Part shown: one piece after another, positions 8,201 to 25,611 of the stretch | Layout: each line of letters starts with the position of its first letter | Numbering within the stretch: position 1 is the first letter of the stretch | Origin: Bradyrhizobium sp. WSM471 | GTDB taxonomy: Bacteria; Pseudomonadota; Alphaproteobacteria; Rhizobiales; Xanthobacteraceae | Direction: 5' to 3' | DNA: 64,000 nt | Assembly: GCF_000244915.1 (NCBI RefSeq) | Contig: NZ_CM001442.1 | Location: 5,146,001 to 5,210,000, forward strand | Translations under genes and position numbers: made by a program | Notes under the pieces: model-generated | Databases searched by the model: none | Told to the model about the DNA's origin: nothing | The model's input: only the letters and a program-made list of their open reading frames with translations

Positions 8201-9469
8201 TCAATCGGCCCGATCGATCATCGAAATGCCCGGCAACGGCACAACGAACTTTCCGCCCTCGGCGAAATAGCCGGCATGCTTGGCCCGGATCGGATCCACA
8301 TAGCGCCAGGCGAAGACGACGACGAACGCCGGCTTGCGCTCGTAAAGGGCGGCGGGCGGCAGGATCGGGATGTCATACCCCGGGCCGGCCATCACGTTCC
8401 CCTTCTTGGGGTCGTCGTCCACCAGGAAGTCGATCTTGTTCTCCAGGCCGAACTGCGGCAGCAGGGTCGTGGTCCCGACCGAGACGCCGTAGCCGGCCAC
8501 GAGCTGGCCGCGCGCATGGGCGGCATCGGCCATCGCGACCAGCTCGTCGCGGATCGCGGCGATCCTCTTCGCATAGGGCACATAGTAGGCTGGCTGGTCG
8601 ACGCCGAGCCGGTCTTCCTCGGCAATGAAGCGCGCGACCTCCGCGGACGGTGTCTTCGCGCCGCCAGCACGCTGCACCGTCACCCGGATCGAGCCGCCCT
8701 TGGTCTCGATGTGCTGGACGTCGATCAATTCCATGCCAAGCCGCGCGAAGAAGCGCGCCAGCGGCTTGATGTTAAAATACGACAGATGCTCGTGATAGAC
8801 GGTGTCGAGAAGGTTTTTCTCGGTGACGTCGACGCCATATTGCGTTTCGAAAACGAACAGCCCGTCCGGCGCAAGCACGTCGCGAACGCCGATCACCAGC
8901 GGGTCGAGATTGTCGACATTGGCGATCATGTTGTTGGCGATCACGACGCTGGCCGCGCCATGGCTTTGCAGGATGCGGCGGCCGATGGCATCGGTGAAGA
9001 AATCGCCGATGGTCTCGATTCCCGCTTCCGTCGCACGCCGCGCGATGTCGACGGCGGGATCGACACCCAGCACCCGCATGCCGCGCTCCCTGAAGAAACC
9101 GAGCAGCGATCCGTCGTTGCTGCCGAGCTCGACGACCAGCGCGCCCGGCGCGATGGCGAACCGGCTGACGACGTCGTTGGCATAACCTGCGAAGTGCTCC
9201 CGCAGACCAAGCGAGAGCGAGGTGGTATAAACGTAGTTTCGGTATTGGACCTCTGGATTGCCGACGTGGAGAATCTGCAGGTGACCGCAGTCCGCGCACA
9301 GGTGCAGCGCCATCGGCACCGCGGCCCGAAAGACGGGATCATCGACGCTTGCATCCGGCACCTGGAAGTTCGGCGTGCCAATGGGCATGCCTGCCATCGG
9401 GACGACAAGCTCTTGCTTGTCCGAATGACAGAGGCGGCAGGTATGACGGACGTAGAACAGGTTTTTCAT
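8201..9469 (-). CDS. Zinc-binding C-methyltransferase-type protein, SAM-dependent
   Basis: 422 residues from the ATG at 9467-9469; an in-frame ATG 24 nt upstream is possible. The N-terminus carries a cysteine zinc site (CRLCHS, later CADCGHL). A class I SAM domain follows (VVELGSNDGSLLGFF) and then a C-terminal domain (VAGYGVSVGTTTLLPQF). This is the architecture of deoxysugar C-methyltransferases of the TylC3/NovU type. It is the last gene of the leftward arm of the carbohydrate cluster and a paralogue of 22158-23375. The substrate is unknown, presumably a nucleotide-linked keto sugar. Confidence 0.85.
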   Translation of the reverse strand: MKNLFYVRHTCRLCHSDKQELVVPMAGMPIGTPNFQVPDASVDDPVFRAAVPMALHLCADCGHLQILHVGNPEVQYRNYVYTTSLSLGLREHFAGYANDVVSRFAIAPGALVVELGSNDGSLLGFFRERGMRVLGVDPAVDIARRATEAGIETIGDFFTDAIGRRILQSHGAASVVIANNMIANVDNLDPLVIGVRDVLAPDGLFVFETQYGVDVTEKNLLDTVYHEHLSYFNIKPLARFFARLGMELIDVQHIETKGGSIRVTVQRAGGAKTPSAEVARFIAEEDRLGVDQPAYYVPYAKRIAAIRDELVAMADAAHARGQLVAGYGVSVGTTTLLPQFGLENKIDFLVDDDPKKGNVMAGPGYDIPILPPAALYERKPAFVVVFAWRYVDPIRAKHAGYFAEGGKFVVPLPGISMIDRAD

Positions 9470-9545
9470 CGTAGGACCGTAAGACGGAGACATGCGAACA
9501 GGTGAGGCAATCTCACCCCGTGGTGATCAGATCGACGGCACCGCC

Positions 9546-10157
9546 TCAGGACGCCGGATATTCCGCCCGACCGATGATGAGGTCGACCGCGGCCATCATC
9601 CAGAACTGATGCGTGGTCTCGACGATGTTGTAGCTGCGGCTGTCGACGTAATAATTGACGTCGCCGAGATTGCGCAGCGGATTCTCCGCGTTCATGCCCG
9701 ACAGCGTGACCACATCGAGCTTCATCGTCCGCGCCTGCGCGACCGCATTGAGAATGTTCTTCGAGCGTCCCGACGAGCTGATCGCGACGAGGCAATCGCC
9801 GGCGCGGGCGCTCAGCCTCACAGCATGCGCAAGCCAGTCCTCGAAACCGTAATCATTGGCGAGGCACGACATCATGCTGGCATCGCTGAAGCAGAGCGCG
9901 GGCACCGATGCGTTCTTCGCCAGATCGATCGCGAGATGCGAGGCGATGCCGGCCGAGCCCCCATTGCCGATAAAGATGACGCGGCCGCCTTGCTCGCGCG
10001 CACGCAACCAGGCCGTGCGGGTGGCGGAAATCCTGGCGAAAACCCCTTCGTCAATTGCCGTCGCACGATGGAGGCGCCCTACGTAGTCGACAAGGAAAGC
10101 CTTGTGATCGGGATCGACGGACTCGGCAGGCATGGGCTCGCGGCTCGACGGCGACAT
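9546..10157 (-). CDS. SIS-domain phosphosugar isomerase, GmhA-like
   Basis: 203 residues with the SIS fold. FIGNGGSAGIASHLAIDLAK and ISSSGRSKNILNAV match the phosphosugar-binding loops of GmhA (sedoheptulose-7-phosphate isomerase) and DiaA. With the kinase/nucleotidyltransferase (11408), HAD phosphatase (14005) and epimerases nearby, a GmhA-like first step from a ketose phosphate is the likeliest role. It starts the leftward arm, divergent from 10296. The substrate is inferred from context only. Confidence 0.85.
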   Translation of the reverse strand: MSPSSREPMPAESVDPDHKAFLVDYVGRLHRATAIDEGVFARISATRTAWLRAREQGGRVIFIGNGGSAGIASHLAIDLAKNASVPALCFSDASMMSCLANDYGFEDWLAHAVRLSARAGDCLVAISSSGRSKNILNAVAQARTMKLDVVTLSGMNAENPLRNLGDVNYYVDSRSYNIVETTHQFWMMAAVDLIIGRAEYPAS

Positions 10158-10191
10158 GACGCCCTGATACCGGCTATCACCAGCGATTGCA

Positions 10192-10295: not shown

Positions 10296-11324
10296 ATGAA
10301 ATGCATCGTTACCGGTGGCGCCGGCTTCATCGGCAGTCACCTCGTCGACCGCCTCCTCGACGATGGCCACGAGGTCATCGCGCTCGATAATTTCGTGATC
10401 GGACGCCCCGAAAATCTGGCCTCGCGCGTCGATTCGAGTCGACTCAAGATCGTACGGGCCGACGTCACCGAACTCGAATCGATCACGCCGCATTTCGACG
10501 GCATCGACTGGGTGTTCCATCTCGCCGCGCTGGCCGACATCGTTCCCTCGGTCGAGTCCCCGATCCCGTATCACCGCGCCAATGTCGACGGCACGGTCAA
10601 CGTTCTCGAGGCTGCACGGCGGGCCGGCGTCAGCCGCTTCGTTTATGCCGCGTCGTCCTCCTGCTACGGAATTCCCGACGTCTATCCGACGCCGGAGAGC
10701 GCCGAGATCCGGCCGATATATCCCTATGCCCTCACCAAGAATCTGGGCGAGCAGTGCGTCATGCACTGGTGCCAGGTCTACAAGCTGCCCGCGGTCGCGC
10801 TGCGCCTGTTCAATGTGTACGGGCCGCGCCATCGCACCACGGGCACCTACGGTGCCGTGTTCGGCGTGTTCATGGCGCAGAAGTTCGCCGGCAAGCCCTT
10901 CACGGTGGTCGGCGACGGCGAGCAGACCCGCGACTTCACCTTCGTCAGCGATGTCGCCGATGCTTTCGTGACCGCCGCGCGCTCCGAGGTCTCGAACGAA
11001 GTTTTCAACGTCGGCTCCGACAACACCTACAGTGTCAACCGGCTGATCGAGCTTCTCGGCGGCGACAAGGTCCACATTCCCAAGCGTCCCGGCGAACCCG
11101 ATTGCACCTATGCCGACATCACCAAGATCAAGCGGGTCCTGAAATGGACGCCGAAGGTAAAATTTGAGGGCGGGGTCGCTACGATGCTGAAGTCGATGGA
11201 TCAGTACAAGGACGCCCCCCTGTGGACGGTGGACAAGATCGCGGACGCCACGAAGGGCTGGTTCAAATATCTGGGGGACAACAACGACGCCGCGTCCGGC
11301 GCGCCGCAGAAGGCAAGCCAGTGA
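10296..11324 (+). CDS. NAD-dependent sugar-nucleotide epimerase/dehydratase
   Basis: 342 residues from ATG 10296 (KCIVTGGAGFIGSHLVDRLL). This is an extended SDR: glycine-rich GGAGFIG near residue 7, YAASSSCYG, and the Tyr-x-x-x-Lys catalytic pair in YPYALTKN at about residues 141-149. It resembles UDP-glucose 4-epimerase and HldD-like enzymes. It is the first gene of the 16-gene rightward arm and is followed by an 83-bp gap. The reaction is probably 4-epimerisation or dehydration of an NDP-sugar; specificity is unknown. Confidence 0.88.
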   Translation: MKCIVTGGAGFIGSHLVDRLLDDGHEVIALDNFVIGRPENLASRVDSSRLKIVRADVTELESITPHFDGIDWVFHLAALADIVPSVESPIPYHRANVDGTVNVLEAARRAGVSRFVYAASSSCYGIPDVYPTPESAEIRPIYPYALTKNLGEQCVMHWCQVYKLPAVALRLFNVYGPRHRTTGTYGAVFGVFMAQKFAGKPFTVVGDGEQTRDFTFVSDVADAFVTAARSEVSNEVFNVGSDNTYSVNRLIELLGGDKVHIPKRPGEPDCTYADITKIKRVLKWTPKVKFEGGVATMLKSMDQYKDAPLWTVDKIADATKGWFKYLGDNNDAASGAPQKASQ

Positions 11325-11407: not shown

Positions 11408-12979
11408 ATGGGCAATATTCCGACCGACAGACCCGCGTTGAACGACCAGCTGGCGGCGCACGAGAAGATCAAGACGATCGAGGAACTGGGCGAGATCGCG
11501 CGGTCCGAGCAAGCGCGGGGCCGGAAAGTTGCACTCTGCCACGGCGTCTTCGACCTCGTGCATCTCGGCCATATCAGGCACATCCAGGCTGCGCGCAACG
11601 AGGGCGACGTCGTCATGGTGACGATCACCGCCGACCGTTACGTCAACAAGGGACCGGGTCGGCCGATCTTCCCCGAAAACATGCGGGCCGAGATGCTGGC
11701 CTCGCTCGCGACGGTCGATTGGGTCGGCATCAATCACACCTCCAGCGCCGAGCCGATCCTGGATACGGTGCGGCCGGACATCTATGTGAAGGGGTCCGAC
11801 TATGAAAACCCCGAGGACGATGTAACCGGCAAGATCCAGAGCGAGCGCGACGCCGTCGAGCGTCACGGCGGACGCATCGTGTTCACGCGCGACGTGACGT
11901 TTAGCTCCTCGTCGCTGGTGAACCGGTATTTCGACATCTACGACCCTCCACTCCGCGACTACCTGCAAAAGGTCCGCGAAGGTGGCGGCGCCGATCGCCT
12001 GCTGAAGCTGATCGACAAGGTGCAGGACATGCACGTCGTGCTGGTCGGCGACACCATCATCGACGAATACCAGTACGTCACGGCGCTCGGAAAGGCCTCG
12101 AAGGAAAACATCGTCGCCACGCTGTTCAAGAGCGGCGAGCAATTTGCCGGCGGCGTCATTGCCGCGGCGAACCATGTCGCGAGCTTCTGCAAGTCGGTGG
12201 AGATCGTCACGACGCTGGGTGGCAACGACTACCCCGAGGAGTTCATTCGTGAGCATGTCCGCCCGAATGTCACGTTGACGCCGATCCGCCTTCAGGGCCG
12301 TCCGACGACCCGCAAATCGCGGTACGTCGAGCTCGGCTATCTGCACAAGCTCTTCGAAGTCTACACCATGGACGATACGCCGCTCGACGAGGCCGATCGG
12401 AAGGAGATCGACCGTATCACGACGGAGCGCGTCCGTGGCGCGGACGTGGTGATCGCCACCGATTTCGGTCACGGCATGATCGCGTCGAGCACGATCGACA
12501 CCCTGATCGCCAACTCCAAGTTCCTGGCGGTCAATGCCCAGAGCAACAGCGGCAATCACGGCTACAATTTGATCACGAGGTATCCGCGGGCCGACTACAT
12601 CTGCATCGACGCGCCGGAGGCGCGTCTGGCCGCAACCGACAAGTTCAGCGACATCGCGTCCGTGATCGAGGCCGGCCTGCACGGCAAGATCGACTGCGAC
12701 AACATGATCATCACGCACGGCTCCTTCGGCTGTTACCCCTTCTCGTCGAAAACCGGCGTCACGCGCGTCCCCGCCTTCACCAAGACCGTCGTCGATACCG
12801 TCGGCGCGGGGGACGCCTTCCTGACGATCACCGCGCCGCTGGTCGCCGCCGGCGGCAACATCGAGGACGTCGCCTTCATCGGCAACGCGGCCGGCGCGAT
12901 CAAGGTCGGGATCGTCGGCCACCGCAGTTCGGTCGAGAAGGTGCCGCTGGTCAAGTTCGTCACCGCGTTATTGAAGTAG
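11408..12979 (+). CDS. Nucleotidyltransferase-sugar kinase fusion (HldE domains in reverse order)
   Basis: 523 residues in two domains. Residues about 40-170 are a cytidylyltransferase-fold domain: HGVFDLVHLGHIRHI with the HxGH motif, RAEMLASL, and YVKGSDYENPEDD like the C-terminal half of HldE. Residues about 205-520 are a PfkB kinase: VVLVGDTIIDEYQY, a GGVIAAANHVAS loop, and catalytic DTVGAGDAF at about 463-471. HldE has kinase first and transferase second; here the order is reversed. It should phosphorylate a sugar phosphate at C1 and then form an NDP-sugar. The exact sugar and nucleotide are unknown. Confidence 0.88.
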   Translation: MGNIPTDRPALNDQLAAHEKIKTIEELGEIARSEQARGRKVALCHGVFDLVHLGHIRHIQAARNEGDVVMVTITADRYVNKGPGRPIFPENMRAEMLASLATVDWVGINHTSSAEPILDTVRPDIYVKGSDYENPEDDVTGKIQSERDAVERHGGRIVFTRDVTFSSSSLVNRYFDIYDPPLRDYLQKVREGGGADRLLKLIDKVQDMHVVLVGDTIIDEYQYVTALGKASKENIVATLFKSGEQFAGGVIAAANHVASFCKSVEIVTTLGGNDYPEEFIREHVRPNVTLTPIRLQGRPTTRKSRYVELGYLHKLFEVYTMDDTPLDEADRKEIDRITTERVRGADVVIATDFGHGMIASSTIDTLIANSKFLAVNAQSNSGNHGYNLITRYPRADYICIDAPEARLAATDKFSDIASVIEAGLHGKIDCDNMIITHGSFGCYPFSSKTGVTRVPAFTKTVVDTVGAGDAFLTITAPLVAAGGNIEDVAFIGNAAGAIKVGIVGHRSSVEKVPLVKFVTALLK

Positions 12980-13006: not shown

Positions 13007-14008
13007 GTGATTGGTCAAAAATGGAATGTGATGGTCACCGGTGGTGCCGGCTATGTCGGTAGCGTGCTGGTTCCCCAGTTGCTCGCTGCGGGCCACAAGG
13101 TCACCGTGCTCGATCTGTTCATGTATGGCGAGGACGTGTTCGATGGCGTCCGCAACAATCCCGATTTGCGCCTGATCAAGGGCGACATCCGTGACGAAGC
13201 CGCGATCAACGGGGCCCTGCGCGGCAACAACGCCGTGATCCACCTCGCCTGCATCTCCAACGACCCGTCGTTCGAGCTGGACCCGGGGCTCGGCAAGTCG
13301 ATCAATTACGACTGCTTCCGGCCGATGGTGCGCGCCGCCAAGAAGGCGGGCATCAAGCGCTTCATCTACGCCTCCTCGTCCAGCGTCTACGGCATCAAGG
13401 ACGAAGCTGAGGTCACCGAGAACCTCTCCTGCGAGCCGCTCACGGACTACTCGAAGTTCAAGGCGATGTGCGAGACCGACCTTGCCGACGAGGCCGCGCC
13501 CGGCTTCGTCACCTGCACGGTTCGCCCCGCCACCGTCTGCGGCTACGCACCGCGGCAGCGGCTCGACGTCGTCGTCAACATCCTGACCAATCTCGCGGTC
13601 AACACCGGCCGCATCCGCGTGTTCGGCGGAACGCAGCGCCGGCCCAATCTGCACATCGAGGACATGTCAGCCGCCTATCTGTTCCTGCTCCAGCAGGATG
13701 ACGCAAAGATCGACGGCAAGACCTACAATATCGGCTACGAGAACCATTCGCTGATGAAGATCGCCGACATCGTCAAGTCGGTGGTCGGCAGCAATGTCGA
13801 CGTCGTCGTCGAGCCGACCGACGATCTCCGCTCCTACCACGTCTCTTCGGAGAAGATCCGCCGCGAGCTCGGCTTTGCGCCGACCCACACGATCGAGCAG
13901 GCCGTGTCCGGACTCGTGAACGCCTTCAAGGGGGGCCGCCTGCCGAACTCGCTCAACGACCCCCGGTACTTCAACATCAAGATGATGCAGAACATCAGCC
14001 TGAAGTGA
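13007..14008 (+). CDS. NAD-dependent epimerase/dehydratase
   Basis: 333 residues from a GTG start with GGAGA 7 nt upstream. This is a second extended SDR: MVTGGAGYVGSVLVPQLLAAG, IYASSSSVYGI, and Tyr-x-x-x-Lys in DYSKFK at about residue 146. It differs clearly from the first epimerase and looks like the group that acts on GDP- or other NDP-sugars. The stop overlaps the next start (GTGA at 14005-14008). The substrate is unknown. Confidence 0.87.
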   Translation: MIGQKWNVMVTGGAGYVGSVLVPQLLAAGHKVTVLDLFMYGEDVFDGVRNNPDLRLIKGDIRDEAAINGALRGNNAVIHLACISNDPSFELDPGLGKSINYDCFRPMVRAAKKAGIKRFIYASSSSVYGIKDEAEVTENLSCEPLTDYSKFKAMCETDLADEAAPGFVTCTVRPATVCGYAPRQRLDVVVNILTNLAVNTGRIRVFGGTQRRPNLHIEDMSAAYLFLLQQDDAKIDGKTYNIGYENHSLMKIADIVKSVVGSNVDVVVEPTDDLRSYHVSSEKIRRELGFAPTHTIEQAVSGLVNAFKGGRLPNSLNDPRYFNIKMMQNISLK

Positions 14009-14625
14009 GCGGCGTGCGGATCGGCATCGATTTCGACAACACGATCATCTGCTACGACAAGGTCTTTGCCGCCGTCGCACGTCAGCGTGGGCTGGTGCCG
14101 GAAGGATGGGAGGGGCTGAAGACCGACCTACGGGATCATCTCCGGTCCCGCGCGGGCGGCGAGCTCGCCTGGCAAGGACTGCAAGGCTTCGTCTACGGCA
14201 AGGGAATTGGCGGCGCCGAGATCTATCCCGGAGTGCGAGAATTCCTGGCGGCGTGCAGGCAGACCGGCGCGAAGGTCTCCATCGTCAGCCACAAGACCCG
14301 ATTCGGTCATCAGGACCCCGACCGCATCGACCTGCGTGACGCCGCGCGCAGCTGGCTACGGGAAGCCAGCCTGATCGACGCTGCGGATGCGGCGCTGGCC
14401 ATCGGCGACGTCTATTTCGAAGACACACTAGCCGCCAAAGTCGCGAGGCTCGCGCGCCTGGAGCTCGACGTCTTCATCGACGATCTCGTCGAGGTCTTCG
14501 AGCAACCGCATTTTCCGAAGACCACGCGATCGATCCTGTTCACACAGGCGCAGCCTCCCCACCCCGAACACTGCAAGCCGATCGCGACATGGGCCGATAT
14601 CCGCCGCGAGGTGTTTGCGGCATGA
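14005..14625 (+). CDS. HAD-superfamily phosphatase
   Basis: 206 residues from a GTG overlapping the previous stop. HAD motif I is GIDFDNT near the N-terminus, motif II the serine in IVSHKT, and the late acidic motif FIDDL. It is not a zinc-type GmhB, but by position it is the best candidate for removing a phosphate from a sugar bisphosphate between kinase and nucleotidyl transfer. Coupled downstream by ATGA overlap. The phosphatase class is well supported and the substrate is inferred. Confidence 0.78.
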   Translation: MSGVRIGIDFDNTIICYDKVFAAVARQRGLVPEGWEGLKTDLRDHLRSRAGGELAWQGLQGFVYGKGIGGAEIYPGVREFLAACRQTGAKVSIVSHKTRFGHQDPDRIDLRDAARSWLREASLIDAADAALAIGDVYFEDTLAAKVARLARLELDVFIDDLVEVFEQPHFPKTTRSILFTQAQPPHPEHCKPIATWADIRREVFAA

Positions 14626-15650
14626 GCGAGACCGACATCACCGCGCCGGATGCGATAGCGATCGGCAGCCGCCTGGCCGGTGCGCGTGTCGCAACCGCCC
14701 AGCCGGCACGGTCCGGCGGCAACAACAGGGTGTTTCGGCTGGAGATGGCGGAGGGACCGCCCCTCGCCCTCAAGCAATATCCGTCCGACGGACGCGATCG
14801 CCTGGGACAGGAGTATGATGCACTCTCGTTCCTGGCGCGCCACGGCATCACGTCGACACCGCAGCCGGTCGCGAAGGACGCAGATGCGTTCTGCGCGCTG
14901 TACCAATGGTTCGAGGGCGAGGCCGCGGTGCTGCGCCCCCAAGGCGACGATGCCGATCAGCTCGCCGATTTCCTCATCGAGCTGCAGAAGCTGCGCGAGG
15001 CCGAAGGCGCGCAAAATCTGCGCAACGCCTCAGCCAGCATCTTTTCGCCCGAAGCGGCCATCGCCCAGTACGAGCAGCGGCTGGACGGACTGAGGCGGGC
15101 TTCGGATGATCATCCCGACCTGCGCGCGTTCATGGAAGGCAGCCTGGTTCCCAGCACTGGCGTCGCGATTCGGCAGCTCCGCCGGCGCTACGCGGAACTG
15201 GGCTGGGATCCAACGGCGGACCTCGCGCCGAGCCATCGCGCGCTGAGTCCGTCCGATTTCGGACTGCACAACGCGTTGCGCGCCGAAGACGGGCGCTTGC
15301 GATTCATCGACTTCGAATATTTCGGCTGGGACGATCCGGTCAAGCTCGTGTCCGACACCGCCATTCACCCCGGCAGCAACCTGCCTGAAGCGAGCGCGAA
15401 TCGTTTGATCGAACGGCTGTCGCGCGCCTTCGAGGCGAGCGATGACGCGTTTGCGATCCGACGTGACGTACTGTATCCTGTGTTCAAGGGAATCTGGTGC
15501 CTGATTGTCCTGAACGCCTATTTGCCGGACAGCCGCTCCCGGCGCGCAATGGCTGCGCAAGGTGGCGATGTTAGGATCCGCCTCGCCGGTCAGCTCGACA
15601 AAGCCCGCCGGCTTCACCAGACGATTCGGCCAACCGATTTACCGAAGTGA
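14622..15650 (+). CDS. APH/choline-kinase-fold phosphotransferase
   Basis: 342 residues from ATG 14622 (ATGA overlap). The N-lobe has a lysine in LALKQYPSD. The catalytic loop reads SPSDFGLHN, keeping Asp and Asn of the usual HxDxxxxN but not the His. The metal-binding IDFEYFGWDDP follows. Members of this fold phosphorylate small hydroxyl-bearing molecules. In a sugar cluster it may phosphorylate a sugar or alditol intermediate. The stop overlaps the next GTG. Confidence 0.78.
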   Translation: MSETDITAPDAIAIGSRLAGARVATAQPARSGGNNRVFRLEMAEGPPLALKQYPSDGRDRLGQEYDALSFLARHGITSTPQPVAKDADAFCALYQWFEGEAAVLRPQGDDADQLADFLIELQKLREAEGAQNLRNASASIFSPEAAIAQYEQRLDGLRRASDDHPDLRAFMEGSLVPSTGVAIRQLRRRYAELGWDPTADLAPSHRALSPSDFGLHNALRAEDGRLRFIDFEYFGWDDPVKLVSDTAIHPGSNLPEASANRLIERLSRAFEASDDAFAIRRDVLYPVFKGIWCLIVLNAYLPDSRSRRAMAAQGGDVRIRLAGQLDKARRLHQTIRPTDLPK

Positions 15651-16495
15651 CCCAGATCTCACCTCACGCTGAAGCCGCCCTCACCTGCACGTTGGATGAG
15701 CGCAGCCTTTATCTGCGCCGCCTGGTGCTCGGTTCTGTCCGCTCCGCGGGGCGCGGACATGTCGGTCCGGCGTTGTCGCTGATCGAGATGGTCCGCGTGC
15801 TCTACGACGACGTGCTGCGGATCGATCCGGACAACCCGCGCGATCCGGCCCGCGACCGCGCGATCCTCAGCAAGGGACACGGCTGTCTGGCACTCTATGC
15901 GCTGTTGGCCGATCGCGGCTTCTTTCCTTTGTCGGAGCTGGACGGTTTCTGCGGCCCCGACAGCATTTTAGGCGGACATCCCGAGTACGGAATGGTGCCG
16001 GGTGTCGAGGCCTCGACCGGCGCGCTCGGACACGGCCTGTCGATCGGTGTCGGCCTCGCGCTCGCCGCGCGCATGCGCGAGCGCTCCTATCGCACCTTCG
16101 TCCTGCTCGGCGACGGCGAGATCAACGAGGGGTCTGTGTGGGAAGCCGCCATGGGCGCCGCCAAGCACGGGCTCGACAATCTGGTCGCGCTGATCGACTA
16201 CAACAAGCTGCAGAGCTACGGGCCCACCGATTACGTCCTGCCGCTGGAGCCGCTCGCGGACAAATGGCGCAGCTTCGGCTTTGCCGTCCAGGAGCTCAAC
16301 GGCCACGACGTCGGCGCCCTGCGCACCGTCCTGAAGCAGGTCCCGGCCGTTCCGGGAAAGCCCACCGCGATCATCTGCCATACCGTCAAGGGCAAGGGTC
16401 TGCCGGCCGCGGAATCCAACGCCGATTGGCATCACAAGAACAAGCTCACCGACGGCGAGCTCGACGCCATCCGCGTCGCCGTCGGCGATTTTTGA
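15647..16495 (+). CDS. Transketolase, N-terminal (TPP-binding) subunit
   Basis: 282 residues from a GTG (15647) that overlaps the previous stop. It is the pyrophosphate-binding half of transketolase: SKGHGCLALYALL, ASTGALGHGLSIGVGLALA, and the TPP motif GDGEINEGSVWEA through LIDYNKLQ. The complementary half is the next gene, 10 nt downstream. Split transketolases occur in archaea and in secondary-metabolism or sugar clusters. Here it could supply a ketose phosphate or add a two-carbon ketol unit to a sugar; which one is not determined. Confidence 0.92.
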   Translation: MTQISPHAEAALTCTLDERSLYLRRLVLGSVRSAGRGHVGPALSLIEMVRVLYDDVLRIDPDNPRDPARDRAILSKGHGCLALYALLADRGFFPLSELDGFCGPDSILGGHPEYGMVPGVEASTGALGHGLSIGVGLALAARMRERSYRTFVLLGDGEINEGSVWEAAMGAAKHGLDNLVALIDYNKLQSYGPTDYVLPLEPLADKWRSFGFAVQELNGHDVGALRTVLKQVPAVPGKPTAIICHTVKGKGLPAAESNADWHHKNKLTDGELDAIRVAVGDF

Positions 16496-17473: not shown

Positions 17474-18580
17474 ATGCAGGACGTTCGATATTCCTATCTG
17501 CTCGAGCAATTCTCCGACCCGGCACCGATCCTGGCCGAGATCGGCCGACTGGTGGCGACGGGTGACTTCACCCTGGGCAAGCCCGTCGCCGAATTCGAAC
17601 GGCGCTTTGCCGAGCTGATCGGCGTGCGTCACGCCATCGGCGTCGGATCGGGCACCGATGCACTCAAGTTGCCGCTCAAGGCGCTCGGCATCGGCCATGG
17701 CGACGAGGTCATCACGGCCGCCAACACCTTCATCGCCACCGTCGGCGCCATCGCCGAGACCGGCGCGACCCCGGTGCTGGTCGACTGCGACGACTCCTTC
17801 TGCATGAACGTCGATTACGTCGAAGCCGCGATCACGGAGAAGACCAAGGCGATCATGCCGGTTCAGTTGACCGGCGAGGTCACCGACATGGGCAAGCTGA
17901 TGGCGATCGCCCAGCGTCACAACATCCCCGTGGTCGAGGATTCCTGCCAGGGCATCCTGTCGGAGTTCGAGGGAAAGCGGTCCGGCACCCACGGTATCGC
18001 GGCCGGCTTCTCCCTGCATCCGCTCAAGAACCTCAACGTCTGGGGCGATGCTGGTGTCGTCGTCACCAATGACGATGGGATGAACGAGCGGCTTCGTCTG
18101 ATCCGCAACCACGGCATGAAGAATCGCGACGAGATCGCGATCCTCGGCTGCAATTCGCGGCTCGATTCCCTCCAGGCGGTCGTCGGCAACTGGCTGATCG
18201 GCCAGACCAGCGAGATCACGCGCCGTCGGATCGAGAACGCGGCCTATTACGATTCGGGCCTTGCCGGCCTGCCCGGCCTGCGCATTCCGCCGCGCCGGCC
18301 CAACGTGAAGCACGTCTACCATCTCTACATGGTGTTCGCCGAGCGTCGCGACGAGCTCTACAAATACTGCCTGGACAACGGCATCGAAGCGAAGATCCAC
18401 TATCCCATCCCGTTGTACCAGCAGGAAGGCCTCAAGCACCTCGGCTACGCGCCGGGCACCTTCCCGGTCACCGACCGCCATGCCCAGGAGGTCATCAGCT
18501 TCCCCGTCGACCAGCATCTGACGCGCGCCCAGCAGGACCGCGTCATCGAGATCGTCCGGAAGTTCTGCCATGGACGGTGA
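17474..18580 (+). CDS. DegT/DnrJ/EryC1-type PLP aminotransferase (first)
   Basis: 368 residues from ATG 17474. Sugar aminotransferase fold: GVGSGTDALKLPLKALGIG, the aspartate region PVVEDSCQGI, and PLP lysine in SLHPLKNLNVWGDAG. Family members transaminate NDP-keto-sugars at C3 or C4. It overlaps the second aminotransferase by 11 nt. Both copies keep the active-site lysine, so two different keto positions or two substrates may be used. Confidence 0.93.
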   Translation: MQDVRYSYLLEQFSDPAPILAEIGRLVATGDFTLGKPVAEFERRFAELIGVRHAIGVGSGTDALKLPLKALGIGHGDEVITAANTFIATVGAIAETGATPVLVDCDDSFCMNVDYVEAAITEKTKAIMPVQLTGEVTDMGKLMAIAQRHNIPVVEDSCQGILSEFEGKRSGTHGIAAGFSLHPLKNLNVWGDAGVVVTNDDGMNERLRLIRNHGMKNRDEIAILGCNSRLDSLQAVVGNWLIGQTSEITRRRIENAAYYDSGLAGLPGLRIPPRRPNVKHVYHLYMVFAERRDELYKYCLDNGIEAKIHYPIPLYQQEGLKHLGYAPGTFPVTDRHAQEVISFPVDQHLTRAQQDRVIEIVRKFCHGR

Positions 18581-19688
18581 CACCGGCCGCCGACGCATCG
18601 GTTACGTCAATCTTCCCGCGCAATTCGAGGAAGAGCGCGTCGAGATCCTGCAGGCAGTCGAGGGCGTGTTCCAGCGCGGCGATTTCATCGGCGGCGCGGC
18701 CGTCGCGAAGCTTGAGGAAGAGCTCACCACCTATCTCGGCTCGCCGCATGTGGTGACGCTGAATTCCGGCACCGATGCGCTGATCCTGTCGTTGCGGGCG
18801 CTCAACATCGGTCCCGGGGACGAGGTGATCACCCCGCCGAATTCGTTCGTGGCATCGACCGCCGCCATCATCGCCGTCGGCGCCAGGCCCGTGTTTGCGG
18901 ACGTGCTACCGGACCAGAATATCGATCCCGCCGCAGTCGAGGCCGCCGTCACCTCGCGGACCAGGGCGATCATGCCGGTGCACCTGACCGGGCGCATGGC
19001 CGACATGAACCCGCTGATGACGATCGCCGCCAAGCATGCTCTCGCCGTGATCGAGGACAGCGCGCAGGCCGTCGGCTCGACCTATGACGGACGGATGAGC
19101 GGGACCATCGGAACGTTCGGCTGCTTCTCCGCCCACCCGCTGAAGAACCTCAATGCGGCGGGCGACGCCGGCTTCGTCGTCACCGCCGACGCCGAGCTTG
19201 CCGCGAGAATTCGCCGCCTGCGCAATCACGGCCTGATCAATCGCAGTGACGTCCAGGAATGGGGCATCGTGTCACGCCTCGACACGGTCCAGGCCGAGGT
19301 GCTCCGGATTCGCTTGCGGCACCTGCCCTCTGTCATCGGACGCCGGCGCAGCAACGCCGCGCAATACCGCGCCGAACTCGCCGGCCTTCCCCTGTTCATC
19401 CCGGTTTGCCGCAACATCGAGTTCAACACGTTCCACACCTTCGTCGTGCAGACGGACCGTCGCGACGACTTCCAGAAATATCTTGCCGACAAGGGCATCG
19501 AGACCGCGATCCACTATCCGGTGCCGATCCACCTCCAGCAGGCGGCGGCGCATCTGGGTCACGGTCGCGGCGCGTTCCCGGTGACCGAGCGGCAGGCGGA
19601 TCAGATCCTCACGCTTCCCATCAACCAGTTCCTCTCGGCCTCGGATATCAGCTATGTTTGCGCGACCGCCCGGGAGTACTTTGCATGA
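18570..19688 (+). CDS. DegT/DnrJ/EryC1-type PLP aminotransferase (second)
   Basis: 372 residues. It has the same fold as its upstream neighbour but is clearly diverged: LNSGTDALILSLRALNIGPGD, VIEDSAQAVGS, and PLP lysine in SAHPLKNLNAAGDAG. The start overlaps the previous gene by 11 nt and the stop overlaps the next ATG (ATGA at 19685). Probably acts on another NDP-keto-sugar. The tandem arrangement suggests duplication followed by specialisation. Confidence 0.93.
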   Translation: MDGDTGRRRIGYVNLPAQFEEERVEILQAVEGVFQRGDFIGGAAVAKLEEELTTYLGSPHVVTLNSGTDALILSLRALNIGPGDEVITPPNSFVASTAAIIAVGARPVFADVLPDQNIDPAAVEAAVTSRTRAIMPVHLTGRMADMNPLMTIAAKHALAVIEDSAQAVGSTYDGRMSGTIGTFGCFSAHPLKNLNAAGDAGFVVTADAELAARIRRLRNHGLINRSDVQEWGIVSRLDTVQAEVLRIRLRHLPSVIGRRRSNAAQYRAELAGLPLFIPVCRNIEFNTFHTFVVQTDRRDDFQKYLADKGIETAIHYPVPIHLQQAAAHLGHGRGAFPVTERQADQILTLPINQFLSASDISYVCATAREYFA

Positions 19689-20491
19689 CGGACACGGCTT
19701 TCCTCGAGGCCGATGAGCAGGCAATGGCGCAACGCTTCATCGACGACGGCTTCGTCACCACGCCGGCCGACGACCGCGCCGGGCTCGACCGGATCCAGCG
19801 GCGCGCCGCCGAACTCGCGGCGGACTATCTGAAGCTGCCAGACGGCAACGACCCCTACGCGATGCTCGACACCATCCACACGCGGGTGAGCGTAGATGAT
19901 CTCAACGGCCTGCGGCTGCACGTCTTCAACGGCCTCAACGCCGAGCCATGGTTCCGGCCGACCTATTTCCGTCTAGCCCGCTCGACGATCGAAACCATCG
20001 TGGGCAACGAGCTCTGCATGCAGCGCCGCGTCAATCTCAGCATCCAGCTGCCGGGCGACGATTCGTCGCTGCTCGCCACCCATTCCGACGTCTGGTCTGG
20101 CGACTCGCCGTTCGAGGTCGTGGTGTGGGTACCGCTGGTCGACGTCCACCGCACCAAATCGATGTATCTGCTGCCGCCATCCCTGAACGGCGAGATGCAG
20201 GACCGGATGGCCAGCCTGCGCAGCGCGGAGGAACTCTATCAGACCATCAAGCCGCACGCGACGTTCATCGAGATTCCCTACGGTCACGTGATGCTGTTCA
20301 ACCAGACCCTGATGCACGGCAATCGCATCAACGAGGAAGCCGGCTCGCGCTGGAGCATGAACTGCCGTTTCAAAAGCATCATGTCGCCCTACGCGGACAA
20401 GCGATTTGGCGAATTCTTCGAACCGATCCTGCTGCGTCCGGCGACACGTGTCGGCATGCAATACAAGCTCCCGGGAGGCTTCCATGGCTGA
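19685..20491 (+). CDS. 2-oxoglutarate/Fe(II) oxygenase of the sporadic carbohydrate cluster type
   Basis: 268 residues. The iron site is visible as HSD in LLATHSDVWSGDSPFEVVVW, with a distal His in MHGNRINEE and the oxoglutarate-binding Arg in SRWSMNCRF. The order and spacing fit an Fe(II)/2OG dioxygenase. I recall a TIGRFAM family of this name that sits next to LIC12192-type proteins, and that partner is the next gene. It likely hydroxylates or otherwise oxidises a sugar intermediate. Confidence 0.8.
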   Translation: MTDTAFLEADEQAMAQRFIDDGFVTTPADDRAGLDRIQRRAAELAADYLKLPDGNDPYAMLDTIHTRVSVDDLNGLRLHVFNGLNAEPWFRPTYFRLARSTIETIVGNELCMQRRVNLSIQLPGDDSSLLATHSDVWSGDSPFEVVVWVPLVDVHRTKSMYLLPPSLNGEMQDRMASLRSAEELYQTIKPHATFIEIPYGHVMLFNQTLMHGNRINEEAGSRWSMNCRFKSIMSPYADKRFGEFFEPILLRPATRVGMQYKLPGGFHG

Positions 20492-20876
20492 GCGAGCCGG
20501 CCATCGCGGCTATATCGGCGCCCGGCCGCTGAACGGCAGCCGTACTCCCCAGCACGTCCAGAACATCGTGATTCGCGACTATGCGCGGCGGAAGAACTTG
20601 CATTATCTGCTCAGCGCCGCCGAGCACACCATGCAAGGCAGCTACATGGTGCTCGAGGACATCCTCGACGAGCTACCCCGGTTGCGCGGCCTGATTCTCT
20701 ACAGCATCTTCATGCTGCCGCCCGACGAGGCACGGCGGCGAGAGATCTATGACCGCGTACTGAGCGAGGGCTGCGATCTGCACGCGGCCGTCGAGGAGAT
20801 CACGCTGTCCTCGCGCGACAACATCCAGGCCGTCGAGGACATCCTGCTCGTCAACAAATTCGCGACCATCCTGTGA
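20484..20876 (+). CDS. Sporadic carbohydrate cluster protein, LIC12192 type
   Basis: 130 residues from ATG 20484, overlapping the oxygenase gene by 8 nt. The N-terminal HRGYIGARPLNG and PQHVQNIVIRDYARR, with LLSAAEHTM and LPRLRGLILYSIFMLP, match the small family named after Leptospira LIC12192, as I remember it. Its biochemical role is not known. It occurs sporadically in surface-carbohydrate clusters next to the 2OG oxygenase, so it is a useful marker of this pathway type. Confidence 0.75.
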   Translation: MAERAGHRGYIGARPLNGSRTPQHVQNIVIRDYARRKNLHYLLSAAEHTMQGSYMVLEDILDELPRLRGLILYSIFMLPPDEARRREIYDRVLSEGCDLHAAVEEITLSSRDNIQAVEDILLVNKFATIL

Positions 20877-20901
20877 CGATGCCGCGGACCGGTTGAGGAC
20901 A

Positions 20902-21567
20902 ATGACCGAGATCAACCTGCTCCAGCCGATGCACGCATCGACCAAGCGGAACTACGTTCAGCGGGTTGTCGAGCACGACAAGGCGGAATCCGCCACTGTC
21001 GCGCGGCAATGGGGGCGCGACTACTGGGACGGCGACCGCCGCTATGGCTATGGCGGTTACCGCTACGACGGACGCTGGCGCCCGCTCGCCCAGACCCTGA
21101 TCGACCGCTATGGCATCAAGTCCGGGATGAGCGTGCTCGATGTCGGCTGCGGCAAGGGCTATTTGCTCTACGAGCTCACCCAGCTCGTCCCTGGCCTCAC
21201 CATCGCCGGCATCGACATCTCCGACTATGGCATTGGCAACGCCAAGGAAGAGGTGCGACCGCAATTGAAGGTCGGCAGCGCCGTCGAGCTCCCCTACCCC
21301 GACCACAGCTTCGATCTCGTGGTGTCGCTCGGCGTGCTCCACAATCTTCCGCTCGAGGACGTCTTCCGCGCCGTGTCGGAGATCGAGCGCGTGGGGCGCG
21401 GCACCTCGAAATATCTGATGGTGGAGTCGTTCCGCGACGAGCGCGAGAAGGCGAACCTGCTCTACTGGCAGCTCACCTGCCTGAGTTTTCATGGTCCGGA
21501 GACGTGGGCCTGGATCTACGACAAATGCGGCTACCGGGGCGACCATGGGTTCATCTTCTTCGAATGA
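20902..21567 (+). CDS. Class I SAM-dependent methyltransferase
   Basis: 221 residues from ATG 20902, with GAGGA just upstream; an in-frame TTG at 20893 is less likely. SAM site VLDVGCGKGYLLYELTQL at about residue 79, acidic loop in IAGIDISDYG, and a later DLVVSLGVLHNL. Preceded by an unusual Tyr/Gly/Arg-rich stretch (WDGDRRYGYGGYRYDGR). Probably an O- or N-methyltransferase of the sugar. It overlaps the next gene. Confidence 0.85.
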   Translation: MTEINLLQPMHASTKRNYVQRVVEHDKAESATVARQWGRDYWDGDRRYGYGGYRYDGRWRPLAQTLIDRYGIKSGMSVLDVGCGKGYLLYELTQLVPGLTIAGIDISDYGIGNAKEEVRPQLKVGSAVELPYPDHSFDLVVSLGVLHNLPLEDVFRAVSEIERVGRGTSKYLMVESFRDEREKANLLYWQLTCLSFHGPETWAWIYDKCGYRGDHGFIFFE

Positions 21568-22165
21568 AGCAACGGGCCTGCGCCGGCCGGCCTCGCTACG
21601 CGCGCAAAATCCCGAAGTGTATTATTCGGACGACGCCATCGTCACGGCGAATGACGCCACGATCGCGGAGCTGAAGCGCATCGCCGCAGGCAATCCGCGT
21701 CTGCGCAGCCGGCTGTGCACGCATCCTGATCCCTCGTCCGGCCTGCACGAGATGCTGATCGTGCATCATCGCGAGGCCTATGTGCGGCCTCACAAGCACT
21801 TTGGCAAACCTGAATCGTTTCACCTGATCGAGGGCACTGCGCAGGTCGTGATCTTCGAGGACGACGGCCGCATTCGCGACGTGCTCGAGATGGCGCCGTA
21901 CGGCCGGGGCGCGCTCTGCTACTACCGGATGCCCGAGCAGTTGTTTCACTCGATCCTGATCACCTCGGAGTGGCTGGTGTTTCACGAAACCACCGCGGGT
22001 CCGTTCGACCCCTCCCGCACGGCATTTCCCGACTGGGCACCGGATGGCAGCGATGCCGCGGCAGTGCAGAACTATGTCACATCGACCGGTGCGCTCGCCG
22101 CGGAGCATCTGGCCCATCGCCATACTTCACGAGCCATTCGAGCAGAGGTTCCTACCGATGACTGA
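21545..22165 (+). CDS. WbuC-type cupin-fold metalloprotein
   Basis: 206 residues from ATG 21545, overlapping the methyltransferase by 23 nt. The cupin metal motif is seen in YVRPHKHFGKPESFHLIEG followed by VVIFEDDGRI, matching the WbuC family of O-antigen clusters. WbuC proteins are small metal-binding cupins of uncertain reaction. The N-terminal extension (MGSSSSNEATGLRRP) is not conserved-looking. It overlaps the next gene by 8 nt. Confidence 0.75.
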   Translation: MGSSSSNEATGLRRPASLRAQNPEVYYSDDAIVTANDATIAELKRIAAGNPRLRSRLCTHPDPSSGLHEMLIVHHREAYVRPHKHFGKPESFHLIEGTAQVVIFEDDGRIRDVLEMAPYGRGALCYYRMPEQLFHSILITSEWLVFHETTAGPFDPSRTAFPDWAPDGSDAAAVQNYVTSTGALAAEHLAHRHTSRAIRAEVPTDD

Positions 22166-23375
22166 TCATTGCCGCCTCTGCCATTCGACCAATTTGCGCC
22201 CGGTCATCGACCTCGGACAGATGCCGATTGCGCATCGGCTTCGGCACAGCCGCGACGAACAGGACGAACGGTATCCGTTCGAGGTGCTGGCGTGTGGCGA
22301 GTGCGGCCTGCCCCAGATCGTCAAGCCGATCGATCCCGACATTCTGTACCGGCAGTTCAACTACAATTTCAGCAGCTGGAAGCCGGAGCCGCATCAGGTC
22401 GACGAGCTCGATACCATCGCCAAATTCTCGCCCCATCAATCCGTGTTCGAGATCGGATGCAATGACGGCCTGTTCATGGACAGGCTTCGCGAACGCGGTG
22501 CGAAGGTTTTGGTGGGCGTCGAGCCCAACCCGGTGTCGGGCAAGATCGCCCGCGAGCGCGGCATCAAGGTCTATGCCGACATGATCAGCCCGGCGCTGTG
22601 TCACGACGCAGTCGCCGAGGCCGGCAAGTTCGATCTGGTCGTCTCGCGACAGGTGCTGGAACATATTGTCGATTTCGAGAACTTTTTCGATTGCGTGAAA
22701 ATCGCGCTGCGCAACGACGGGCTTCTCTTCATCGATGTGCCTGATTTCGCGCCCGGCTCCGCGGTCGGCGACCTCTCCGTCCTCTGGGAGGAGCACGTCA
22801 GCTATTTCACCGAACCGACCCTGATCGCGCTGCTGGCCCGTCACGGCTTCGAGGCGATTTCAGTGAAGAAATACAATTTCAGCGGCGGCAGCCTCGCGAT
22901 CGCAGCCCGGCGCGCGACGCGCGACGTGATGCCTCCGCCCGCTCCTGCCGGCGTCGGCGAAAGGTTCGGCCAGCGCGCCAGGGAGTACGGCGCGCGTCTT
23001 CGCCCGATCCTCGCCAAGGCACGCGCCAACGGCGCCGAGATCGCCATCTACGGCGCCGGCTGTCGAGCCTGCACCTTCACCAATGCCCATGAACTCGCGG
23101 ATCTCGTCGACCTCTCGGTCGACGACCAGAAGGAGCGCCAGGGCTTGTTCCTGCCCGGCACCGGCATTCCGATCCGCCCGCCGGAGAACCTCGCCGGCAA
23201 GTCGGATCCACTCGTCTGCCTTCTGGCCGTCAACCAGGAGAACGAAGACAAGGTCGGCAGCCGGCTGCGCGAAAACGTGAAGCGTCCGCTCCACATCGTA
23301 TCGATCTTCGCGCCCTCGGACATCTGGAGCGAGCTCGATCGCCTCGAGGCCGCCGCAGGGTCGCGGCATGGCTGA
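22158..23375 (+). CDS. Zinc-binding C-methyltransferase-type protein (second copy)
   Basis: 405 residues from ATG 22158. Cysteine site CRLCHS and CGECGLPQ, SAM site VFEIGCNDGLFMDRL, then SRQVLEHIVDFENFF and a C-terminal IAIYGAGCRACTFTN. Same architecture as the gene at 8201-9469 but clearly diverged. Such enzymes C-methylate NDP-keto-sugars. Two copies at opposite ends of one cluster suggest two methylation steps or a duplicated function. It overlaps the next gene by 8 nt. Confidence 0.85.
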   Translation: MTDHCRLCHSTNLRPVIDLGQMPIAHRLRHSRDEQDERYPFEVLACGECGLPQIVKPIDPDILYRQFNYNFSSWKPEPHQVDELDTIAKFSPHQSVFEIGCNDGLFMDRLRERGAKVLVGVEPNPVSGKIARERGIKVYADMISPALCHDAVAEAGKFDLVVSRQVLEHIVDFENFFDCVKIALRNDGLLFIDVPDFAPGSAVGDLSVLWEEHVSYFTEPTLIALLARHGFEAISVKKYNFSGGSLAIAARRATRDVMPPPAPAGVGERFGQRAREYGARLRPILAKARANGAEIAIYGAGCRACTFTNAHELADLVDLSVDDQKERQGLFLPGTGIPIRPPENLAGKSDPLVCLLAVNQENEDKVGSRLRENVKRPLHIVSIFAPSDIWSELDRLEAAAGSRHG

Positions 23376-24573
23376 GGACAAGCTCTTCAACTATTACGAA
23401 CGTCAGGACGTCCTGCCGACGTTCGGGAATTTCAAATCCGCCGCCGAACTCGAAGCCTATGCCCGCCTGCGGCGCGAGTTGTTTTCCGACAAGCTGGTGC
23501 TGCCGCCACGGTTGTTCCGCGACGCCGACGTGCTCGAATTCGGCCCCGATTCCGGTGAGAACGCGCTGGTGTTTGCCGGCTGGGGCGCAAACATGACGCT
23601 CGCCGAGCCGAACCGGCATGCGCACGCGAAAATCCAGGCTTACTTCGCACATTTCAACCAGGCTCAACGTCTGCGCGAACTCGTATCGTTCGATGTCGAA
23701 GGATTTCGCAGCGATCGTCGCTTCGACATCATCGATGCCGAAGGATTCATCTACACGGTGCAGCCGACTGAAAATTGGCTCGGCGTCTTTCACCGGCTGC
23801 TCCATCCGGACGGTTACGCTGTCGTTTCCTACTACGAGCGCTACGGCGGCTTCTTCGAGCTCGCGCTCAAGGCGATTCATGCGGCCGGCAAGGTGCTGAC
23901 GGGCCGTCCCGGGCTCGAAACGGCGAAGCTGCTGTTCGACGCGAAATGGAACAGCATCCCGCATACGCGCAGCTTCGAATCCTGGCTGATGGACGTGCTC
24001 GAAAATCCTTTCGTCCGGCACCGCTACTTCCTCGACGCGGGAGCCTTGTGCACGGCGGCGCATGAGCAGGGATTCGACATCCATTCAGGGTGGCCGGCTT
24101 ATCGCGACAGCCTGGACGTCTACTGGCACAAGAAGGTCCTGCCCGATGACGAGAAGCTGCGGCGCGCGACGCGCCACCTCGGTCGCAGCCGTCTGAGCTT
24201 TCTCGGCGGACGGAAGCTCTATCTGGCCGGCAAGACCGAGATGGTCGAGGCGATCTCGGCTTCGATCGAGACACTGGTTGTCGATGTCGATGCGATGATC
24301 GACGATCCCTTCGGCGATAGCCTGCCCCGTGTGATCGCGAGCCTTGCGTCGCTGCGCGAGGCGATACCGGCGACAGACATTCTCGCCGACGATGCGTCCG
24401 ACATCGATGCCATCATGGCGACCCTCGACAGCTTCCATCGTATCTTTGGCGCGATCGGGCGACGGGACGTGTCCACAGTCACGGCCCTCACCCAGTCCGA
24501 CCAGGCGTTCATCAACACCTGGGGACAGCCGGCGCACTTTCTTGTTATCCGGAAACGCTTCGAGGGGTCCTAG
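23368..24573 (+). CDS. SAM-dependent methyltransferase-like protein
   Basis: 401 residues. The region after VLEFGPDSGENALVF resembles SAM motif I, with LAEPNRHAHAKI as the acidic post-motif and DIIDAEGFIYTVQPTENWL downstream. The C-terminal 150 residues, with no recognised fold, are Asp-rich and probably helical. Its methyltransferase activity is likely but unproven. It is the penultimate gene of the rightward arm, three nt before the oxidoreductase start. Confidence 0.65.
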   Translation: MAEDKLFNYYERQDVLPTFGNFKSAAELEAYARLRRELFSDKLVLPPRLFRDADVLEFGPDSGENALVFAGWGANMTLAEPNRHAHAKIQAYFAHFNQAQRLRELVSFDVEGFRSDRRFDIIDAEGFIYTVQPTENWLGVFHRLLHPDGYAVVSYYERYGGFFELALKAIHAAGKVLTGRPGLETAKLLFDAKWNSIPHTRSFESWLMDVLENPFVRHRYFLDAGALCTAAHEQGFDIHSGWPAYRDSLDVYWHKKVLPDDEKLRRATRHLGRSRLSFLGGRKLYLAGKTEMVEAISASIETLVVDVDAMIDDPFGDSLPRVIASLASLREAIPATDILADDASDIDAIMATLDSFHRIFGAIGRRDVSTVTALTQSDQAFINTWGQPAHFLVIRKRFEGS

Positions 24574-24576
24574 CAA

Positions 24577-25611
24577 GTGAGGCCAGGCATTGGCATCATC
24601 GGAACGGGCATGGTCGGTCAGATGTGCCACCTCGCCAATTTCGTCGCCAACCCCGCCTGCCGCGTCGTCGCGATCGCGGATCTCCGGCCCGACCTCGCTG
24701 CCGCAGCGGCGCAAAAATTCGACATCGCGCGGGTCTACGGCACGCACCGGGAACTGCTGGCGGACAGCGAAGTGTCGGCCGTCGTCGTCGTGACGAAGCG
24801 TCGCGCCACCGGCCCGATCGTGCTGGGTGCGTTGAGCAGTGGCCGCCATGTGCTGTCGGAAAAGCCGATGGCCTACACCGCGGCTCAGGCCGTTTCACTG
24901 ACCGAGGCGGCGCTCCGGCACAAGCTCGTCTACAGCATCGGCTACATGAAGCGTCACGACGCCGGGGTGGCGCGCGCGATTGCCGAGTTGGCACGCCTAC
25001 GAGCGGATCAGTCGCTTGGACGCGTTGTCGGCGCGCGAGGCTGGTGCTTCGGCGGCAGCACTGGCCGGTCCCAGGACAACTTTGTCATGACCGGCGAAGT
25101 GCGGCCGGACGGGCTCGAGCTCTGGCAGGACGGCCCCGACTGGATGCCGGGTGCGATGCGACCCGGCTACGACAGTTTTCTGAACGTGTTCAGCCATATC
25201 ATCAACCTCGCGCGCTACATGCTCGGATCGTCACCGACGGTCGCGGAAAGCACCATCGAGAGCTCGGGCGCGGCGACCGTGACACTCGACTTCGACGGCG
25301 TCGCCTGCGCGCTGCAACTCGCAAATGGATCCGACGGCGTCTGGCGCGAGGGGCTGAGCATCGCGTTCGAACAGGGCGCGCTGACCATCGAATTGCCCCC
25401 ACCGTTTGCCGAGCAGGAGGCGGAGGTCATCCTCGATCAGCAAGGACAACGCACGCGATTGTCGCGCGACACGAGCTGGGCGTTTCGGCGTCAAGCCGAT
25501 GCATTCGTCGCCGATATCGTGGAGCAGAGGACGCCGCTGGCTTCCGGCGCAGATTCCGTGGCCGACATCGCCCTTGCGGAGGCGATCTGGAAACGGCAGG
25601 TCAGCGGTTAG
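24577..25611 (+). CDS. Gfo/Idh/MocA-family oxidoreductase
   Basis: 344 residues from a GTG with GAGGGG upstream. N-terminal Rossmann motif IGIIGTGMVGQMC, family signature HVLSEKPMAYT (EKP) at about residues 90-100, and a C-terminal substrate-binding domain. Members oxidise or reduce sugars or NDP-sugars with NAD(P). It ends the rightward arm; the next element is tRNA-Trp on the opposite strand, 73 bp away. Exact substrate unknown. Confidence 0.88.
   Translation: MRPGIGIIGTGMVGQMCHLANFVANPACRVVAIADLRPDLAAAAAQKFDIARVYGTHRELLADSEVSAVVVVTKRRATGPIVLGALSSGRHVLSEKPMAYTAAQAVSLTEAALRHKLVYSIGYMKRHDAGVARAIAELARLRADQSLGRVVGARGWCFGGSTGRSQDNFVMTGEVRPDGLELWQDGPDWMPGAMRPGYDSFLNVFSHIINLARYMLGSSPTVAESTIESSGAATVTLDFDGVACALQLANGSDGVWREGLSIAFEQGALTIELPPPFAEQEAEVILDQQGQRTRLSRDTSWAFRRQADAFVADIVEQRTPLASGADSVADIALAEAIWKRQVSG

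Follow-up and report, generated by a model that had tools for sequence, protein, structure and literature searches.

We report that the interval between secE and tRNA-Trp in Bradyrhizobium sp. WSM471 is occupied by a block of 18 genes, apparently suited to making an uncommon activated sugar, at positions 8201-25611 of the window (the whole 64,000-nucleotide stretch analysed, positions 5,146,001 to 5,210,000 of a genome that forms one contig of 7.78 Mb). On balance, the block is probably a sugar-nucleotide island as old as a clade within the genus, inherited largely vertically, often lost, and present here in reduced form. More tentatively, we propose that its core specifies an undescribed route to activated higher-carbon sugars starting from a dedicated split transketolase, and that one of its marker proteins, SpoChoClust_1, is a serine-recombinase domain devoid of its nucleophile and recruited as pathway enzyme or partner subunit. 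The cluster type is an orphan, represented here by just two NCBI families described as "sporadic" and assigned to no named pathway; the proposal would give it a pathway open to testing and a host genus that is tractable.

Occupancy of the site was surveyed in 117 evenly drawn Bradyrhizobium genomes (G numbers designate these), using the second marker family, SpoChoClust_2 (TIGR04324), as proxy for the cluster; complete gene content was examined in eight genomes with the cluster on site. nusG and tRNA-Trp share a contig in 104 genomes. The distance between them, secE included, is 418-549 bp in 29 of the 104, which we regard as empty sites; it amounts to 794-1006 bp in 11 further genomes without the cluster and to 1.3-34 kb in another 34. 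Such a spread among cluster-less genomes identifies the interval as a variable site. SpoChoClust_2 is present in 33 of the 117 genomes, after removal of G065 from an initial tally of 34 (24% identity, E 9e-4). It lies within the nusG-tRNA interval in 28, WSM471 included, and on contigs that break inside this interval in G016 and G072. The remaining three carriers have it more than 0.5 Mb away from nusG (G015 and G115; 0.53 Mb in the latter) or on a contig without tRNA-Trp within the 20 kb fetched (G041). The sequence-only reading had described the block as an insertion on the 3′ side of tRNA-Trp relative to the usual gene order, and the empty sites in 29 of the 104 genomes agree with this description. 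Its suggestion of an insertion in this strain alone does not hold, as the marker occupies the same site in 29 other Bradyrhizobium genomes. It had added that the cluster should be considered ancestral if most Bradyrhizobium carried it here; this is not so genus-wide (30/117), and it is so within a clade defined by gyrB (29 on-site carriers out of 51; see below).

Alignment of the flanks with the cluster-less genomes G036, G094 and G009 (blastn) ends at 8039-8042 and resumes at 25664-25680. The block replaces a spacer of 108 bp in the empty site of G094 and of 132 bp in that of G036, the spacer reaching the tRNA end. The approximately 200 bp upstream of secE (7837-8040) are well conserved across the compared genomes with and without the cluster and are probably leader or promoter sequence. 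A collection of 137 loci with a confirmed SpoChoClust_2 relative was also assembled, and 80 of these were kept: 44 Bradyrhizobium-like and 36 others (L numbers designate loci). Among the 44 named Bradyrhizobium-like loci, every core gene occurs in 43 or in all 44, the exception being the hybrid L121. The loci closest to the cluster oxygenase gene (93-99% identity) are from Bradyrhizobium, plus one Bradyrhizobiaceae metagenome-assembled genome (MAG). In a sample of 398 genomes of the phylum, TIGR04324 scored above cut-off in seven, six of them Bradyrhizobium, and in none of 14 controls; the distribution is thus sporadic, as the NCBIfam designation "sporadic carbohydrate cluster" implies. A tblastn search with SpoChoClust_2 gave no match among 72,556 plasmid records.

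The age of the island was approached with a gyrB tree of 80 genomes, comprising all 32 carriers with a complete gyrB and 48 of the 84 non-carriers, the latter hand-picked to give a wide spread and good contigs. The on-site carriers on the tree, 29 in all, fall in a single 51-genome clade (support 0.99). Distances in cluster DNA correlate with gyrB distances (Mantel r 0.51, p 0.0005, n=28 with the hybrid G011 excluded), with means of 0.081 and 0.075, respectively. The three off-site carriers are 0.17-0.19 distant in cluster DNA and 0.15-0.17 in gyrB. Together with the cluster remnants described below, these distances appear to fit an old resident, transmitted largely vertically and often lost. 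Two findings weigh against so simple a history. Presence of the cluster is near random on the gyrB tree of the clade (14 changes as opposed to a mean of 16.7 after shuffling; 245 of 2000 shuffles were as low), and 22 of the 51 genomes of the clade lack it. Exchange of the site between lineages, besides loss, is therefore likely too. Clean empty sites occur nested within the clade, which suggests that empty alleles replaced occupied ones, and the cluster could also have been regained laterally in some lineages.

Both marker families of the NCBIfam "sporadic carbohydrate cluster", TIGR04323 (SpoChoClust_1) and TIGR04324, score above cut-off in the window, where their genes are adjacent and overlapping. 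The library names no pathway. What the bare listing does not convey is the context seen here, namely a split transketolase and heptose-type activation genes at a clade-specific locus. We propose a pathway in which chain length, order of steps and acceptor are the parts we infer. The split transketolase would produce a ketose phosphate with seven carbons, or with eight or another non-standard number, the latter options being considered because the transketolase is dedicated. The GmhA-like isomerase would convert this product into an aldose phosphate, to be activated by the HldE-like kinase, the HAD phosphatase and the nucleotidylyltransferase. Tailoring would involve the SDRs, the two aminotransferases, the Fe(II)/2-oxoglutarate (2OG) oxygenase, the C-methyltransferases and the GFO/IDH oxidoreductase. 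In strains with a longer form of the cluster, a family 2 glycosyltransferase (GT2) with multi-pass membrane and flippase-like proteins would deliver the sugar to a surface acceptor; this delivery route being lost in the present lineage, another glycosyltransferase would have to use the sugar.

Known systems offer partial parallels. With the ADP-heptose pathway (GmhA-HldE-GmhB-HldD) the cluster shares a homologous isomerase and kinase/nucleotidylyltransferase, but the HldE domain order is reversed relative to PRK11316 and scores remain under the equivalog cut-offs. The cluster isomerase is the best match to the GmhA profile genome-wide (87 bits), with no match reaching the cut-off, although a canonical HldE domain above cut-off is encoded elsewhere in this genome. 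The closest solved relatives of both transketolase halves are those of the Carboxydothermus split transketolase. The lincosamide octose pathway employs the transaldolase LmbR, LmbN, the nucleotidyltransferase LmbO, LmbM, LmbL, LmbZ and LmbS. Like it, the cluster combines a pentose-phosphate-type C-C bond enzyme, nucleotide activation, an SDR, an oxidoreductase and a pyridoxal-phosphate enzyme, a likeness judged by enzyme class. Unlike it, the cluster has a transketolase in place of the transaldolase, a fused HldE-like protein, and the oxygenase and SpoChoClust_1 in addition; no condensation genes are seen. According to an excerpt of one study, transketolase yields octulose 8-phosphate and LmbR forms octulose via a transaldol reaction in the lincomycin route (PMC5854111); an excerpt of another places GDP-octose in the lincomycin pathway (PMC12945683). 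Within the open-access collection searched, there was no paper on the "sporadic carbohydrate cluster" or its family names and accessions, none joining transketolase, nucleotide sugar and octose, none combining O-antigen, heptose, aminotransferase and dioxygenase and, among those listed for flagellin, none that also mentions transketolase.

The 36 loci outside Bradyrhizobium, all picked by SpoChoClust_2, come mainly from Azospirillum, Nitrospirillum, Skermanella and other Alphaproteobacteria, with some from gamma- and betaproteobacterial, myxococcal, Stygiobacter and Chitinophaga MAGs. Genes were counted by tblastn at a threshold of 33% identity over half the protein, on contigs that are often short. 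The core recurs widely (spo1 35, mtA 34, tkC 26, tkN 25, hldE 21, aph 21, had 20, sdrB 17, sdrA 15 and gmhA-like 11), and the accessory genes are rare (mt14 6, wbuC 6, gfo 4, degT2 3, mt13b 3, degT1 1 and mt23 0). A flagellin-like gene lies near four of the 36 loci (one verified) and a TPR protein near ten, the single one tested having a family-41 transferase domain; on account of these neighbours, the sugar may decorate flagellin in some hosts. Nine of the 36 also have a gene of a family that includes a radical SAM protein (one member verified, L127:11259-12323).

Several observations tell against the proposed pathway. The GmhA and HldE equivalog cut-offs are not reached (86.6 bits for a cut-off of 209; 107.8 for 181.5 and 102.5 for 345), the GmhA-like gene occurs in just 11 of the 36 distant loci, and several of these loci are MAG contigs, which may contain binning errors. 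Moreover, the dedicated transketolase might serve for branching: in this alternative it would move a two-carbon unit onto a keto-sugar to form a branched-chain sugar, with the HldE-like and GmhA-like proteins feeding an ordinary heptose. The resemblance of the transketolase C-terminal half to 6yaj and then, in sequence, to DXS accords with such a role, and the C-methyltransferase types point to branching chemistry. Two-carbon branching enzymes do exist in nucleotide-sugar pathways. Against this reading, the transketolase genes of many core loci come after those of the HAD and APH proteins, an order consistent with action on free sugar phosphates. We judge branching rather unlikely, albeit the most serious competitor of the higher-carbon route.

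As for the marker proteins, residues H133, D135 and H211 of SpoChoClust_2 are invariant in 33/33 sequences and form the HxD...H metal triad of a PhyH-type fold, by which the protein is a predicted Fe(II)/2OG oxygenase. The predicted fold of SpoChoClust_1 matches the catalytic domain of serine recombinases. The serine nucleophile of these enzymes is presumably to be expected after strand 1, where the window protein reads GYIGARPLNGSRT; no serine is invariant among the 33 sequences. Unlike gamma-delta resolvase and phiC31 integrase, to which it has no sequence match, SpoChoClust_1 lacks the conserved serine, and its 130 residues leave no space for a DNA-binding domain. No sequence link to resolvases was found in Pfam or among PDB sequences. 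The protein could be a case of a recombinase fold turned to metabolic use. A link to Pox_F16, seen in one of 33 members (E 0.07), was not used. In two Myxococcales MAGs, SpoChoClust_1 lies in one frame with a methyltransferase (L151:10801-12354 and L154:10801-12354).

On-site clusters come in two main sizes. Among 28 measured carriers, 21 have 25.3-28.7 kb and five 18.0-18.8 kb; the outliers are G061 (23.0 kb), which lacks the middle block of the long form, and G058 (52.9 kb, including an element discussed below). Full annotation of G062 and G095 shows what the long form has in addition: at the left, a flippase-like protein of the LPG_synthase_TM type; mid-cluster, two or three extra membrane proteins; and at the right end, a membrane protein of 533-564 aa, a pair of small proteins and, by the tRNA, a GT2 glycosyltransferase. 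The large membrane proteins tested gave no Pfam match. In having GT2, flippase-like and multi-pass membrane proteins, the long form resembles the Gtr three-component systems, which are O-antigen modification modules; none of these genes is in the window. The entire long order is kept at another place in the off-site carrier G115, and the fetched parts of G015 and G041 agree, both without mt13b. The long form is therefore taken as ancestral and the 18-gene form as its reduced derivative. In ten of the 44 named loci, 34-248 bp separate the last gene from the tRNA. The right block is missing from all ten, and none has the middle block intact (fragments persist in two); for most other named loci the sequence fetched stops short of the tRNA. 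In L122 only the middle block is missing. Short forms G000/G076, G068, G111 and G112 do not constitute one clade on the cluster tree, implying several losses, and lpgTM1 fragments remain in G111 and G112. Remnants of the cluster also persist in G063, where mt14, the right end and a diverged gmhA-like gene are left, and in G104 (an mt14 piece only). A separate variant is the hybrid island of L071/L072 (G011) and L121, in which transketolase, HAD, APH and mt13b are swapped for 40-66% identical versions on the opposite strand and an acyltransferase is added; both aminotransferases and mtA were not found there.

One might regard the short form as a decaying remnant without function, since the long form's glycosyltransferase-type genes are absent from it. 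The best match to the long-form GT2 in the WSM471 genome has just 32% identity (GT2 alone of the lost genes was covered by this search). However, all 18 genes are open, and the ratios of nonsynonymous to synonymous substitution rates (dN/dS) between the two short-form genomes G000 and G076 span 0.03-0.45: had (0.45) and wbuC (0.34) stand highest, as decay would have it, and the other 16 genes are at 0.03-0.23. We consider a functionless remnant improbable; the data suggest, rather, that a glycan-delivery module was lost from the island several times while the sugar-making genes stayed under selection.

A recent genomic island, integrated site-specifically at tRNA-Trp in this strain by an integrase since lost, must also be considered, as empty sites are common and, in other strains, this tRNA is used by tyrosine-recombinase elements that carry a 45-bp repeat of its 3′ end. 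At least ten other genomes have a copy (43-45 bp) of the tRNA 3′ part, which lies no more than 5 kb from nusG in nine and beyond the cluster in the tenth (G058). Five repeat-bearing genomes were examined for integrases, which adjoin the tRNA in G009, G028, G058 and G103 and lie near the copy in G078. In G058, nusG is followed by the cluster, the tRNA copy, an integrase-bearing element and the tRNA; this element, lying between cluster and tRNA, is therefore separate from the cluster. Integrase-borne elements of about 16-29 kb attach at tRNA-Trp through a 45-bp repeat of tRNA positions 32-76 (L082, L268-L272; G009, G058, G028, G078; G103). The block itself bears none of these marks. As first noted from the letters alone, the window contains no integrase (PF00589 matches nine places in the genome, none in the window) and no copy of the tRNA 3′ end (best local score 14 for the last 45 nt against 7837-25684; 13-19 in 20 single-base shuffles), which speaks against the usual tRNA-targeted integration entertained in that reading. 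GC content of the cluster (0.637) does not deviate from that of the flanks (0.629 and 0.641). With the marker at the site in 29 other genomes, divergence like that of gyrB and a spacer replaced up to the tRNA end, recent arrival is very improbable.

Bradyrhizose, a bicyclic O-antigen sugar of photosynthetic bradyrhizobia, has ten carbons by its formula, and higher-carbon chemistry would be plausible for it. That the cluster makes this sugar is the least probable alternative of all, given that, according to an excerpt of PMC4743980, an 11-gene cluster near rfaL has been linked to bradyrhizose in ORS285, with synteny in six photosynthetic strains, and given that the 80 SpoChoClust_2 loci kept of 137 include none titled as those strains. 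The two clusters, compared here by description, could be related.

Table 1. Genes and flanking features of the cluster, in window coordinates.
Feature	Position	Strand	Family or closest relative
nusG	7091-7645	-	
secE, left flank	7645..7836	-	PF00584
Putative leader or promoter upstream of secE, common to cluster-less genomes; left junction ~8040	7837..8040		blastn of flanks
Sugar C-methyltransferase type, Methyltransf_13/23/14	8201..9493	-	closest solved: D-mycarose 3-C-methyltransferase, then TcaB9
GmhA-like SIS isomerase (core)	9546..10157	-	TIGR00441 86.6 bits, below cut-off 209
SDR A, epimerase/dehydratase family (core)	10296..11324	+	
HldE-like, nucleotidylyltransferase domain then PfkB kinase domain (core)	11408..12979	+	
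SDR B (core)	13007..14008	+	
HAD-type protein, weak family match, DFDNT motif (core)	14005..14625	+	
APH-type kinase (core), start reset to ATGA overlap	14622..15650	+	PF01636
Split transketolase, N-terminal half (core)	15647..16495	+	PF00456; closest solved 6yak split transketolase
Split transketolase, C-terminal half (core)	16506..17465	+	PF02779/PF02780; closest solved 6yaj
DegT-family sugar aminotransferase 1 (accessory)	17474..18580	+	PF01041; solved relatives 3uwc, then 7b0d, 2oga, QdtB
DegT-family sugar aminotransferase 2 (accessory)	18570..19688	+	PF01041
SpoChoClust_2, predicted Fe(II)/2OG oxygenase (core)	19685..20491	+	TIGR04324, 339 bits, cut-off 150
SpoChoClust_1, predicted serine-recombinase-like fold (core)	20484..20876	+	TIGR04323, 167 bits, cut-off 55
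Class I methyltransferase (core)	20902..21567	+	PF08241
WbuC-family cupin, start uncertain	21617..22165	+	TIGR04366 130 bits, cut-off 42
Second Methyltransf_13/23/14 C-methyltransferase-type protein	22158..23375	+	
Methyltransf_23 protein	23368..24573	+	
GFO/IDH/MocA oxidoreductase	24577..25611	+	PF01408
tRNA-Trp (CCA), right flank	25685..25760	-	

The layout in Table 1 bears out the initial description of the locus: positions and strands of secE, nusG and tRNA-Trp are correct, and the 18 genes, two leftward and 16 rightward, contain no internal stops. A long open reading frame starting at 9492 was rejected as a gene; it is a chance extension of the one whose true start is at 10296, and runs opposite to the SIS-domain gene. 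The rightward arm, described from the outset as almost gapless, measures 15,316 bp, of which intergenic sequence makes up 205 bp overall. Its genes overlap at eight places, namely two ATGA, two GTGA, one of 11 bp and three of 8 bp (the wbuC start being uncertain).

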